Assembly (NCBI GenBank): GCA_902564345.1
Contig: CACFAY010000001.1
Span: 89,922 to 128,840, forward strand
DNA length: 38,919 nucleotides
Origin: an uncultured SAR324 cluster bacterium
GTDB lineage: Bacteria; SAR324; NAC60-12
Direction of reading: 5' to 3'
Both the position numbers and the translations under genes were made by a program. The notes under the pieces were generated by a model. The model searched no databases and had not been told where the DNA came from. It saw only the letters and a list, made by a program, of their open reading frames with translations. Shown here piece by piece: positions 15,465-22,695 of the stretch (position 1 is the first letter of the stretch; the number at the start of each line of letters is the position of its first letter).

Positions 15465-17897
<2,433 letters not shown>

Positions 17898-17913: not shown

Positions 17914-18981
17914 TCAAACAAGTTGTCCTTCTACAACCTGAAACTGTCTTATTGGGGAATAATTTAATGGCTCAGAGGTTGAAGTGATGAAAATCTGATT
18001 TTTTAAATGCAAAAAATATTTAAACACGGAGTTAACAACTTTATCATCAAGCTCCGAAAAAAGATCATCAAAAATCATTACTGGTGAAAAACTGTACCTT
18101 TCGAATAATAAATGATTTATTGTCATTATTAAAGACAAATTAGTTATTCTGAATTCGCCTTGTGAGAAAAAATCTCTATCTTTTTTTCCGTCTAGTAACA
18201 AATGATATTCATCACGATGAGGTCCAATTACTGAAAAGCCATATTGCAAATCTCGGGTCATATTTTTTTTAAGCTGAATTAAAACCTCGCTGTCTTGAAA
18301 ATTATTTGTTATTAAAGATGGTTTATAAACTAACTTCAGAATTTCATCTCGTCCTGATAGACCTTTGAAAACGTCACTTAAGTAGCTGTTAATCAACTCT
18401 ACAAATTCATTACGTTGCTTCATTAATTTAACAGCTGATCGCGCAAGCATACTATTCCAAATCATAAGTTGATCGGTAACTCCCTGCTTTAAAAGAGCGT
18501 TTTTTTCAGAAATGATTTTTGAATATTCTTTAAAATTTTTTAGATACGCTGAGTCATTGAAAGAAATAATTCGATTGAAAAACTTTCGTCGTTCATGAGG
18601 AACATTGCGAAACAGATTAACATCCTCTGGAGTGAGTGCCAATGCCATGAAAGAAGGCGTGTATTCTGAGACCTTCCTTACTAATGAATTGTCCAGAATT
18701 ACCTGCCTTCCTTTGTTTGAAAGGTTTACCTTGATTATATGCTTAACGTTTTTGGACTCTACCTGAGCAGTAATGACTGCTTCAACACTTTTTTCATTTA
18801 GAAGTTGTGGTGTTTTTCTTGTTCGGAAGGACTCTAGGTTACAAAGGTAGTAAAGTGCTTCAACCAGATTTGTTTTGCCTTGTCCATTTGCACCAAAAAT
18901 CCAGTTTATTCCCTGTGATAGTTCGACAATACACCTATTATAATTACGGAATTGTGAGAGCTCCAACTTTCGGACGATCAT
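17914..18981 (-). CDS. recF: DNA repair/replication protein RecF
   Basis: SMC-like ATPase of the RecFOR pathway, 355 aa from the ATG at 18981 (a TTG at 18987 is also in frame but less likely). Near the N terminus, LELSQFRNY leads to the Walker A GANGQGKTNLVEALYYL. The helical arm region follows, with the signature-containing FSQGEFRITNLSLIM (about residues 263-277), and Walker B/D-loop PVMIFDDLFSELDDK near the C terminus. All hallmarks are present. It sits between dnaN and gyrB, the conserved order. Confidence 0.96.
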   Translation of the reverse strand: MIVRKLELSQFRNYNRCIVELSQGINWIFGANGQGKTNLVEALYYLCNLESFRTRKTPQLLNEKSVEAVITAQVESKNVKHIIKVNLSNKGRQVILDNSLVRKVSEYTPSFMALALTPEDVNLFRNVPHERRKFFNRIISFNDSAYLKNFKEYSKIISEKNALLKQGVTDQLMIWNSMLARSAVKLMKQRNEFVELINSYLSDVFKGLSGRDEILKLVYKPSLITNNFQDSEVLIQLKKNMTRDLQYGFSVIGPHRDEYHLLLDGKKDRDFFSQGEFRITNLSLIMTINHLLFERYSFSPVMIFDDLFSELDDKVVNSVFKYFLHLKNQIFITSTSEPLNYSPIRQFQVVEGQLV

Positions 18982-19056
18982 AAACAATCATTTCCGACTT
19001 ACAGTTTTCATATAATTATTACAATGCCTTTGGTCACTAAAGCAGAAACCGTAACA

Positions 19057-20178
19057 TTACCATTCAACTCTCAAAGGCATTATGACTGATAAAAAAGATT
19101 CATCATCTGGCGATTTAATGATCGTTGGACTCATTGAGTTCTTGCATTCCAGTACCACATTTTTAGTCTCTAAAACTGATAGAACATCTAACAGGTATTT
19201 GGAATTAAATCCTATTTCAAAAGACTCTCCCTCATAGTCAATTTCTATTTCATCGATAACTTCTCCGTAGTCAGCCTTTTCGCTTTCAAGTTTCAAACTT
19301 CCAGGTGAAATAATCAGTTTTACTGGTCTAAGTTTCTCTGAACTTATAGATGATACGATTCTGAGTGAACTTATAAATCGCTCCCTATTGACAATCATCT
19401 CAAGTGTGCTATCTTTTGGTATGATAGGATCACAGTTAGGAAATTTTCCCTCAATTAGTCTAGTTTTAAACATAATTGAACCACCAGAAAACTGCATTAC
19501 ACGGTCATCAAAGGTAATATTAACATTTTCCCCAAACAACTCTGCTACTCTGCGTACCTCGGTAAGTGCTTTTCTTGGAATAATTACCTCTTTATCAGAG
19601 TCAAAACTTAGCGCATCAATAGTTTTTATCATTTGTGCGAGTCTATGTCCATCCGTGGAAAGCCATCTTGTCTTCTGATCACCATTATAGCTCAGGCAAA
19701 CACCCATTAAGTTCCTCCTTGATTCATTTGTAATTGCGGCAAACAAAGTTTTATCAATACAATGTCTAAAATCATCTACATTTATAGTTATTGACTGTGG
19801 GAGTTCTTCTAGAATAGTCTGAGGATATAATCCAACTTCTACAGAAGGCAAGCGTGTTTCTGAAGTTCCACATACTATATGGATCCACAATTGCTCTGTG
19901 GACTTTATATGTACATTTTCTGCCTGCAACTCCCTGACAATATCAAATACTTTTTTAGCGTTTACACAGATGCTTCCCTGTTCTTTAATTTCTGCAGGTA
20001 CAATTTCAACTAAAGATAATTCATAGTCAGTTGAAGAAAATTCAACTTCTTTTTCTTTACCATCGATAGTTCTTATAACAAAATTTGAAAGAATTGGCTT
20101 GGTTGTACTCTTATCAACAACAGAATTAATGTTTTGTAGTGTGTTACTTAATGCGTTTCTTTTTAAAATTATTTCCAT
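19057..20178 (-). CDS. dnaN: DNA polymerase III beta subunit (sliding clamp)
   Basis: Ring-shaped processivity clamp, 373 aa. The N terminus reads MEIILKRNALSNTLQNINSVVDKSTTKPILSNFVI, the typical beginning of DnaN. LLST-like DGHRLAQM (RWLSTDGHRLA) and a second-domain GGSIMFKTRLIEGKFPNCDPIIP follow. The C-terminal region ends VIMPLRVEW, equivalent to the (M/V)PMR(L/I) clamp-loader/polymerase-contact tail. The gene upstream is not dnaA but a noncoding spacer with TGTTGA repeats; recF follows after 75 bases. Confidence 0.97.
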   Translation of the reverse strand: MEIILKRNALSNTLQNINSVVDKSTTKPILSNFVIRTIDGKEKEVEFSSTDYELSLVEIVPAEIKEQGSICVNAKKVFDIVRELQAENVHIKSTEQLWIHIVCGTSETRLPSVEVGLYPQTILEELPQSITINVDDFRHCIDKTLFAAITNESRRNLMGVCLSYNGDQKTRWLSTDGHRLAQMIKTIDALSFDSDKEVIIPRKALTEVRRVAELFGENVNITFDDRVMQFSGGSIMFKTRLIEGKFPNCDPIIPKDSTLEMIVNRERFISSLRIVSSISSEKLRPVKLIISPGSLKLESEKADYGEVIDEIEIDYEGESFEIGFNSKYLLDVLSVLETKNVVLECKNSMSPTIIKSPDDESFLSVIMPLRVEW

Positions 20179-20204
20179 ATATATTTAATTATCATTAGTA
20201 GGAT

Positions 20205-20358
20205 TGTTGACTTCCTGTTGATTAATGTATGTGTTCTTGAAATTTAAGGAGTTCTTGAAATTTTTGAGTTGTTGATAATGTTTTGGCTAGGGGTTTATAA
20301 TCAACAAGTTACCAAATATTTGGAAAAAACCCAACAGGAATTGTTGAAAAAATGTTGA
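20205..20358. repeat. Cluster of TGTTGA-core nonamers
   Basis: Copies lie at 20205 (TGTTGACTT), 20216 (TGTTGATTA), 20270 (TGTTGATAA), 20301-20306 (TCAACA, reverse), 20342 (TGTTGAAAA) and 20353 (TGTTGATTG). A related TTAACAACA is at 20370-20378. Six exact hexamers within 154 bases is well above chance even in AT-rich DNA. Confidence 0.8.
20233..20263 (+). repeat. Two 13-base direct repeats, GTTCTTGAAATTT
   Basis: Exact copies at 20233-20245 and 20251-20263, offset by 18 bases, lie between the second and third TGTTGA sites. Confidence 0.85.
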
Positions 20359-20500
20359 TTGTCAGGCAGTTAACAACAGATTAGAAAACTATTTTGTTAA
20401 TTTAAAAAATTAAAAGTATCTATTAGAAAACTAAACTTATATTTTATTTAGATAATTTCATCACTTAAGAACGTAAACCATACTGCTATACAAATACAGT

Positions 20501-21154
20501 TTAAACGAATACAGAAGTTAATATCATCTTGTTCATTTCTGTAAAACTTCCATAAAGGGGGAACCTGTGTTGAATTTTTCCAATTGATTTAAAAATGGTG
20601 AATGAAAATTTATTCTCAGTTTCATTTAGTAACACTTCAGCGTCTTTAAAATTAAGGTATGTTTTTGAACTAGGGTAGAGGCATTTAAATATTGATTCTT
20701 TGGCAGAAAAAATTATGCAGAGAGCCCGGTTAGCTTGTTTAGGTGGAAGAGACTCTAACCATTTAATCTCAGAGTCAACACAGACGTGTCTCCTGATCTC
20801 AAAATTAAGTGATTTGGAAAGACTTTCTAAATCAATACCAACACCATTGATCTCCTTTTTTAGTCCAACAGCAACAGCGACAAATCCAGAAGAATGAGTA
20901 ATACTTCCCCAAACAGAATTGGGCCAACATGGTTCGCGAGTTTTAGGATTTCTCAAAATTGGTTCAGATTCGAGTCCAAATTTTGATAGTGCTTCGTGTG
21001 CGTATACTCTACCTTTCATAAATTCGGCACGCCTTTTCTGTGAGCCAAATGATTCAGCGATAACTTGCTCTTCTGGAAGGATACGAAAATCCTTTTCAGG
21101 AAGGTTTTTCCCGCAGTAAAAACTAATGAACTCTGGAAAAGGTGAGGAGAACAT
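20501..21154 (-). CDS. 4'-phosphopantetheinyl transferase superfamily protein, EntD/Sfp-like
   Basis: Transfers the phosphopantetheine arm of CoA to carrier proteins, 217 aa. The conserved P-x-W-P...G-S-I-T-H-S block (about 93-107, WPNSVWGSITHSSG), the metal-binding GIDLE (about 125-129) and FSAKESIFKCLYP (about 168-180) are all present, as in the EntD subgroup. The target carrier protein is unknown; no PKS or NRPS genes are in the window. It overlaps the upstream gene by one base (TAATG), so it is translationally coupled to the exported proteins' genes. Confidence 0.9.
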   Translation of the reverse strand: MFSSPFPEFISFYCGKNLPEKDFRILPEEQVIAESFGSQKRRAEFMKGRVYAHEALSKFGLESEPILRNPKTREPCWPNSVWGSITHSSGFVAVAVGLKKEINGVGIDLESLSKSLNFEIRRHVCVDSEIKWLESLPPKQANRALCIIFSAKESIFKCLYPSSKTYLNFKDAEVLLNETENKFSFTIFKSIGKIQHRFPLYGSFTEMNKMILTSVFV

Positions 21155-21786
21155 TAAAGCGCAATTTGAACTCCGATAGTAGTCATTCCTCCCGTATAGT
21201 TCTTTTTATCTAAACTGTATTCAGTAAGGGATATTCCACTTTCTTTGGTAAGATCAAGTTTGGAAACAGACATCAAATGGTATCCAATATGAAATTCAAT
21301 TATGCTCCAGAAAGGTAGCCCAATATGGAGGAAACCTTCAGAAACTGGAGTACTAAAATTACTATCATCTGAATTTGATGTATTTCCAAGGGTTTCAGTG
21401 ACTGATGTATTTGTAGTCATTACACCTGCACCTATGCCAATTGCTATTGAAACTACTGGAAAAGGTATATTGTAAAAAAAATTAACTGTTTCAATCTTAG
21501 TGTCTGTAACTAGAGAAAGCGTGTTAGAGGAGCTCGATGTTGAAGTTTCTGATTGTTTTTCTTGGAAATTTATTCTTGATACTCCAAGATTTGGGAAAAA
21601 AGGGACTGGGTGAGTGATCCCAACTGAACCCCCAGAAACTGTTCCAGGGGCAGCAGAGTATGCTATAGCTAAATCAAGATTTAAACCTATGAATTGTGCT
21701 TTTGCTGGTAATGCCAGTAAAAGAAATAGAAATGTTAAACTCCAGGATAAACAAAATTTGCTTAAATGTTTTGTCCTGTTTAGCAT
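21154..21786 (-). CDS. Exported beta-rich protein, probable outer-membrane protein (paralogue 1)
   Basis: 210 aa. A signal peptide (basic start, hydrophobic core, LPAKA|Q at about residue 30) precedes a mature part of alternating hydrophobic/polar residues typical of outer-membrane beta strands, ending in GGMTTIGVQIAL. No named family was recognised. It aligns with its upstream neighbour: NIPFPVVSIAIGIGAGV here against LLPIPVINLTLGAGVGT there, and GFLHIGLPFWSIIEFHIGYHL against GYASLGFPILPLFDLHLSYR. It has an extra S/T-rich stretch (about 78-90). It is 19 bases downstream of its paralogue. Confidence 0.75.
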   Translation of the reverse strand: MLNRTKHLSKFCLSWSLTFLFLLLALPAKAQFIGLNLDLAIAYSAAPGTVSGGSVGITHPVPFFPNLGVSRINFQEKQSETSTSSSSNTLSLVTDTKIETVNFFYNIPFPVVSIAIGIGAGVMTTNTSVTETLGNTSNSDDSNFSTPVSEGFLHIGLPFWSIIEFHIGYHLMSVSKLDLTKESGISLTEYSLDKKNYTGGMTTIGVQIAL

Positions 21787-21805
21787 TCGAGATAGTTCAT
21801 TATGC

Positions 21806-22339
21806 TTAAAAGTTAAACATGATACCTATACCCGTTACTTTTCCGCTAAGATCTAATTCTGTACCAGAACTCTTAACTTTAACTTTAGTGGTTATTGAAC
21901 GATAACTTAGATGCAAATCAAATAAAGGCAGTATTGGAAAACCTAGGCTGGCGTAACCTTGGACTGCTCCACCTTTATCGTATACAGAGGAGCAAACCGA
22001 ACACTCTAACTCTGTAGTTCCCACACCTGCACCTAAAGTTAGGTTAATAACTGGAATTGGTAGAAGATAATATAGATTATAAATCGTGGTTGCTAATTTA
22101 ATTTCTGGACTGCTATCTTTTATTTTGGTTTCATAATTATCCATTCCAATTCCTGGCAGTATCGGTATCCCAACTTGAATAAAGGTTCCGCTTACTCCAT
22201 CAGACTCTGCAACGTCTGAATCATTGAAAGTATGTGATAATGGAACTCCAACACTGAAGTTTACAAGCGCAAAAGCTTGTGTGCTGAATAAAATCAGTGA
22301 TGTTACCGCGATCCAGTTTATAATAATTTTTCGTATCAT
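21806..22339 (-). CDS. Exported beta-rich protein, probable outer-membrane protein (paralogue 2)
   Basis: 177 aa. A signal peptide of about 24 residues (MIRKIIINW start, ending QAFA) is followed by a strand-rich mature part ending in the aromatic residue of GIGIMFNF, as outer-membrane barrels often do. Two cysteines form a C-S-V-C motif around residue 115 and could make a disulfide. It shares its layout with the next gene (see paralogue 1). A strong ribosome site AGGAG, five bases before the ATG, is unusual for this window. Function unknown. Confidence 0.75.
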   Translation of the reverse strand: MIRKIIINWIAVTSLILFSTQAFALVNFSVGVPLSHTFNDSDVAESDGVSGTFIQVGIPILPGIGMDNYETKIKDSSPEIKLATTIYNLYYLLPIPVINLTLGAGVGTTELECSVCSSVYDKGGAVQGYASLGFPILPLFDLHLSYRSITTKVKVKSSGTELDLSGKVTGIGIMFNF

Positions 22340-22362
22340 GTTATCTCCTATTCAGAGGTTCG

Positions 22363-22695
22363 TTATTCAGACGAAGCAGAAGACTCAATGGGACCTCTTC
22401 TCCAATCGTCAAATTTTCCAAGTGGACGCGTAAAAGTGAACTCAAATGGATCAACTATAAGGCTTGTCCAAGCATCTCCGGTACTACCGGAAGTCAGAGC
22501 AAATGGCAGGGAAACAATAAAAACTGCTGTGCCAATCACAATCAAACTCATACTTACTACACGAACTGGAATATCTATCGCCATTGCAAATCCTTCAGCA
22601 CGTTCTTCAGGAATTGCCGCTGAGGCATGTCCAATAACTAGTGCAAGAAACAGGCAACTGATTGTGAAAATTTTCAGAGATTTAGAGTGATACAT
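22363..22695 (-). CDS. Small exported/membrane protein, function unknown
   Basis: 110 aa. A signal peptide (about 1-26, ending HASA) is followed by one further hydrophobic segment (about 47-68, VVSMSLIVIGTAVFIVSLPFAL) and a short conserved-looking tail, SLIVDPFEFTFTRPLG, with an acidic/serine end. It resembles conserved small envelope proteins of unknown role in Gram-negative bacteria. A tandem duplication has copied its first part and upstream DNA (see repeats at about 22628-22887). It lies 23 bases before paralogue 2 and is probably in the same operon. Confidence 0.72.
   Translation of the reverse strand: MYHSKSLKIFTISCLFLALVIGHASAAIPEERAEGFAMAIDIPVRVVSMSLIVIGTAVFIVSLPFALTSGSTGDAWTSLIVDPFEFTFTRPLGKFDDWRRGPIESSASSE

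Follow-up and report, generated by a model that had tools for sequence, protein, structure and literature searches.

A candidate chromosomal replication origin with DnaA-box-like repeats of altered sequence upstream of dnaN in a SAR324 cluster bacterium

The window, that is the whole stretch of 38,919 nucleotides which was analysed, corresponds to bases 89922-128840 of contig 1 in an assembly of 1.86 Mb (51% complete) from an uncultured SAR324 cluster bacterium. An intergenic gap is located in it between dnaN and a 4'-phosphopantetheinyl-transferase-like gene (Table 1). The gene dnaN is followed by recF, gyrB and der, and all of them, together with the gene across the gap, are encoded on the minus strand. 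The first-pass annotation, made from the letters alone, had named dnaN-recF-gyrB beside the gap, and the NCBIfam matches agreed with these names. Close relatives of dnaN shared 75-87% identity, most of them being from assemblies named as SAR324-cluster or Lambdaproteobacteria. The dnaA gene of this genome was found on a separate contig from dnaN. Three small ORFs in succession were present at 21154-22695 of the minus strand, the first with a weak outer-membrane beta-barrel match (TIGR04219, below cut-off). The gap region matched no family in an Rfam search, and no description of a SAR324 replication origin was found in a literature search.

Table 1. Genes and sequence features at and around the dnaN-upstream gap (positions of the window)
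Feature	Position	Strand	Remark
gyrB	15465..17867	-	NCBIfam TIGR01059 and NF011501
recF	17914..18987	-	NCBIfam TIGR00611
dnaN, DNA polymerase III subunit beta	19057..20178	-	NCBIfam TIGR00663, E 1.4e-82
Predicted oriC, dnaN / phosphopantetheinyl-transferase-like intergenic gap	20179..20500		322 bp, 75% AT
DnaA-trio run CTACTAATGATAATTA (dnaN sense), predicted unwinding site	20186..20201	-	Published trio rule, PMC8287927
DnaA-box-like 9-mer AAGTCAACA, trio-proximal	20205..20213	-	Most relatives have TTGTCAACA there
DnaA-box-like 9-mer TAATCAACA, second of tandem pair, 2 bp from 20205..20213	20216..20224	-	
DnaA-box-like 9-mer TTATCAACA	20270..20278	-	Equals the clade consensus
Inverted DnaA-box-like 9-mer TAATCAACA	20298..20306	+	Position not kept in most relatives
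Hairpin CAACA-ATTCC-TGTTG, then GG and T6, terminator-like	20324..20346	-	Conserved in genus (alignment)
9-mer TTTTCAACA, DnaA-box status uncertain	20342..20350	-	Overlaps hairpin
DnaA-box-like 9-mer CAATCAACA	20353..20361	-	
AT-rich stretch named in the first-pass annotation, 84% AT	20375..20470		Poorly conserved, away from trio
4'-phosphopantetheinyl-transferase-like gene, opposite gap edge	20501..21154	-	NCBIfam NF050105 below cut-off, E 4.8e-28

Six TGTTGA/TCAACA cores were identified in the gap within 154 bases (20205-20358), five on the plus strand (TGTTGA at 20205, 20216, 20270, 20342 and 20353) and one inverted (TCAACA at 20301), and two pairs, 20205/20216 and 20342/20353, had the same orientation with a distance of 11 bp, both in accordance with the earlier count. 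In the sense of dnaN (minus strand) the sites are DnaA-box-like 9-mers with TCAACA at the 3' end. One of them, TGTTGATAA (20270-20278), is a single base off the complement of the classical DnaA box, TGTGGATAA, and the perfect box TTATNCACA was not found anywhere in the gap, as had been noted before. Position 6 of the box was A throughout the array, in place of the C of canonical TTWTNCACA. The boxes of the window fitted the clade consensus less well than those of its relatives, with a sole copy of TTATCAACA (20270..20278). TCAACA ranked first among the 6-mers of the gap region in an unbiased count over all 6-mers. In dinucleotide shuffles of the 322-bp gap the mean was 0.35 cores, six cores were reached in 0 of 20,000 and two 11-bp core pairs likewise in 0 of 20,000; in a look-elsewhere count, any 6-mer not purely of A/T reached six copies in 14 of 3,000 shuffles. 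Two additional TCAACA-type 9-mers were observed at 20111-20119, just within dnaN, and at 20568-20576, just within the neighbouring gene; they may be part of the array or a coincidence of the coding sequence. The DnaA arrays of E. coli oriC are composed of 9-mers in one orientation with 2-bp spacing, which gives an 11-bp period. The array of the window is like them in its co-oriented 9-mers and 11-bp period, and unlike them in box sequence, in the adjacent dnaN, in a run of DnaA-trios on the dnaN side, and in that no 13-mers were seen.

Repeats of this kind at dnaN in related genomes had been put forward as a check by the first-pass annotation, and they were found. The array was conserved in 13 genus members (window included), with 83 cores upstream of dnaN, 3 to 11 in each. 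Positions 1-3 were unconstrained in the search and resolved to TT(A/G), which gave the genus consensus TT(A/G)TCAACA, with TTATCAACA counted 31 times and TTGTCAACA 21 times. The most frequent spacing was 11 bp, and the majority of the boxes were oriented towards dnaN. When the tandem pattern TTRTCAACA-NN-TTRTCAACAA was searched in 17 whole genomes with one mismatch allowed, 13 matches were returned, and all 13 were immediately upstream of dnaN. TTRTCAACA sites clustered solely at dnaN on contig 3 of genome G005 (800 kb, 6 of 32 sites) and on contig 12 of G016 (147 kb, 6 of 9 sites). An independent check for an array upstream of dnaA yielded no more than a single AAATCAACA shared by several relatives.

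A trio run which the first-pass annotation had overlooked was revealed in the interval that separates the last box pair from dnaN. It consists of five successive triplets with a middle T (CTA CTA ATG ATA ATT), which read 3'-NAN-5' on the other strand, and a spacer of 3 bp lies between it and the box at 20205-20213. In the genus, CCTACTACTACTACTAAAATAAAT or a near variant lies between the trio-proximal box and the dnaN start codon, and the window has CCTACTAATGATAATTAAATATAT there; (CTA)3-5 occupied the trio position in most relatives. On the opposite strand these DnaA-trios read 3'-GAT-5'. Comparable trio runs precede dnaN in most other genera that were read. Among these genera are class relatives that keep dnaA directly upstream of dnaN and whose trio extends into the dnaN ATG. 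In the dnaA-dnaN gap of L156-L166 among these relatives the CTA run enters the dnaN start codon (CCCTACTACTACTATG), thus the unwinding element overlaps with the start of translation there.

This arrangement could be compared with the basal origin-unwinding system (BUS), composed of tandem DnaA boxes and DnaA-trios; this system was predicted for 85% of 2,070 origins, and in several species its function was demonstrated in vitro (PMC8287927). According to the BUS rule, at least three trios (3'-NAN-5') should lie no more than 16 bp from a DnaA box (PMC8287927), and the window has them within this distance. The box may carry up to two mismatches to the standard motif, and a tandem pair is allowed 2 and 4 (PMC8287927); in direct comparison with TTATCCACA, the tandem pair of the window showed 2 mismatches in TAATCAACA and 4 in AAGTCAACA. 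As in BUS of the Bacillus subtilis type, the boxes are co-oriented, 2 bp apart and followed by a short spacer, and the trio run is read 3'-GAT-5' and adjoins dnaN (PMC8287927). Unlike in BUS, the boxes of the SAR324 genus are TT(A/G)TCAACA and not TTATCCACA. Because box pair, spacer and trio are laid out on the dnaN side, the unwinding site was predicted at 20186-20201 and not at 20375-20470, so that judged from the sequence the unwinding element is likely on the dnaN side of the array. The AT-rich stretch at 20375-20470 was real as described (84% AT), but it is on the far side from dnaN, and unwinding probably does not take place in it. The terminator-like hairpin (stem-loop 20332-20346) is overlapped by the core at 20342; it was not called by a consensus scan, for which it has too few G-C pairs. 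The hairpin with its T-run at 20324-20346 may halt transcription from the upstream gene before the unwinding module.

A minimum of GC skew, by which the first-pass annotation had proposed to judge the locus, was located here in part of the genomes, no further than 3.3 kb away on four of the six group contigs but not on two. On the window's own contig the cumulative minimum was 3.2 kb from the gap, and on contig 6 of G022 it fell inside dnaN; the distance to the region was 2.2 kb on contig 61 of G021 and 1.3 kb on contig 23 of G046, while the minimum was 69 kb off dnaN on contig 3 of G005 and not at dnaN on contig 12 of G016. A canonical cluster elsewhere, which would have spoken for another origin, was not observed in the 51%-complete assembly, where no TTATCCACA pair was closer than 1.6 kb. 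Thus the origin reading of the first-pass annotation was supported by conservation, the unique tandem array, the trio and the skew minimum on 4 of 6 contigs. From the anatomy, conservation, location, skew and co-variation observed for it, the gap at 20179-20500 is taken as the chromosomal oriC, where SAR324 DnaA would bind the TT(A/G)TCAACA array and load onto the trio, with a probability of about 0.88. We infer that DnaA-ATP would occupy the co-oriented boxes through domain IV, and would spread from the tandem pair (20205-20224) through its AAA+ domains onto the trio strand (20186-20201). These domains would coat one strand, and the duplex would open beside the dnaN start codon.

The base at position 6 differed among groups. 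For TNXACA sites upstream of dnaN, C was favoured as X in 22 outgroup genomes (60 observed vs 9.6 expected), whereas in the window's genus C was depleted (4 vs 16.4 expected) and A was enriched (109 vs 37.9 expected). An excess of G in the same genus is probably an overlap artefact, since TTGTCAACA contains TTGACA on the other strand. In the sister genus g2, TCGACA was the top 6-mer in an unbiased count and was present in all 43 boxes counted in four genomes; these boxes were mainly TTTTCGACA, with G at position 6 and again a spacing of 11 bp. No box could be named upstream of dnaN in genera g3, g6 and g7. Several TCAACA-type 9-mers together with a CTA run were present in the dnaA-dnaN gap of three outgroups from other families (G066, G071 and G075). 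The idea that A at position 6 is exclusive to the SAR324 group was rejected, for Mollicutes and some outgroups have A as well.

Domain IV of DnaA was aligned for 40 group members and 57 outgroups in E. coli numbering; the base-contacting residues are 399, 423, 432, 433, 434, 435, 438 and 439 (PMC5043019), and two of them, 433 and 438, are attributed to position 7 of the box, the neighbour of the changed position 6 (PMC8235120). Asp433 was found in 51 of 57 outgroup genomes vs 3 of 40 group members, counts that are not independent among the related members. Residue 438 was His in 23 of 23 family members and in none of the outgroups, and residue 439 was Ala, Ser, Asn or Gly in the family and mostly His or Tyr in the outgroups. 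Canonical features were retained at Arg399 (40/40 group members) and His434 (39/40). The clade DnaA has Asn/Ser at 423, mostly Asn at 433, His at 438 and Ala/Ser at 439. The DnaA of the window kept Asp433, with N423, S435, H438 and S439, so from the canonical pattern (Asp433, hydrophobic 438, His/Tyr 439) it departed at 438 and 439. A rule by which Asn433 goes with A and Ser/Thr433 with G at position 6 was tried and failed on this Asp433; it was also contradicted by two order relatives (G032 and G036), which have Thr433 with TCAACA sites, and by G066, G071 and G075, which have Asp433 with such sites. In G010, an assembly of the same genus, a second DnaA-like gene (contig 69, 2500-3582, 33% identity) was observed, which is probably assembly contamination.

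A DnaA of shifted specificity had been one of two explanations in the first-pass annotation, and since box position 6 covaries with the residues of domain IV that contact the bases, such a shift is likely across the SAR324 clade, as far as sequence comparison can tell. It is proposed that the boxes differ from TTATNCACA at position 6 because these residues of the clade DnaA were changed. No single residue accounts for the box change, since the window's DnaA keeps Asp433, and with the three Asp433 outgroups that have TCAACA sites the cause on the protein side could not be pinned down; any causal residue named would be putative. A class-wide box change paired with altered base-contacting residues of DnaA is also found in Epsilonproteobacteria, whose boxes have the core TTCAC and whose helix 5 is changed (PMC5043019). 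There position 5 was changed and the Asp-His dyad kept, whereas in SAR324 position 6 was changed and Asp433 mostly lost. That initiator and origin of SAR324 co-evolved to a new recognition code, with Asp433 lost, His438 gained and position 6 turned from C to A, or to G in the sister genus (TTTTCGACA), has a somewhat better than even chance, and closely related origin-initiator pairs may then not cross-recognise.

Alternatively, the origin is real and its DnaA is merely relaxed at position 6, the boxes having drifted in A+T-rich DNA. The Mollicute consensus TT(A/T)TC(C/A)ACA accepts C or A at this position (PMC3322544), so A is allowed there as in SAR324 and TTATCAACA matches both consensuses; the TCAACA sites of some Asp433 outgroups and the Asp433 in the window's own DnaA point the same way. 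However, C and A are mixed in Mollicutes, whereas in the window's genus C is depleted rather than diluted, the sister genus uses G in every counted box, and four base-contacting positions of DnaA were altered in the family, which leaves relaxation rather unlikely. Much less probable is the second explanation of the first-pass annotation, another regulator at these sites; the repeats would then serve as its operators in the oriC region, for dnaN transcription or for initiation, and DnaA would use other sites. One core does overlap the terminator-like hairpin, and TTGTCAACA carries the promoter-like TTGACA on its other strand. Against this, the boxes retain the DnaA-box half TT(A/G)T and the 9+2 spacing and, in the manner of DnaA boxes, directly precede the trio run, their position-6 letter shifts in related genera alongside the changes of DnaA domain IV, and the gap has no alternative box candidate. 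That a short motif clustered by chance in A+T-rich DNA can be dismissed, although the gap is 75% AT and TGTTGA is frequent in the window (59 observed vs 33 expected), because the array was not reached in 20,000 shuffles and is conserved in 13 genus members.

With the gap read as an oriC of shifted box sequence, origin finders which default to TTATCCACA are expected to overlook SAR324 boxes. For this uncultured marine group a known origin would help growth-rate estimates from read coverage. In the sister genera A or G at position 6 is matched to differing residues of DnaA domain IV, a natural series in which the residue that sets DnaA-box specificity could be sought, and with it the joint change of an essential initiator and its origin. 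In the origin region of g2 (L026-L030), a three-box module (CATTTCAAGCCAGTCGACAGGTTTTCGACAGGTTTTCGACAG) some 45 bp long occurs twice.
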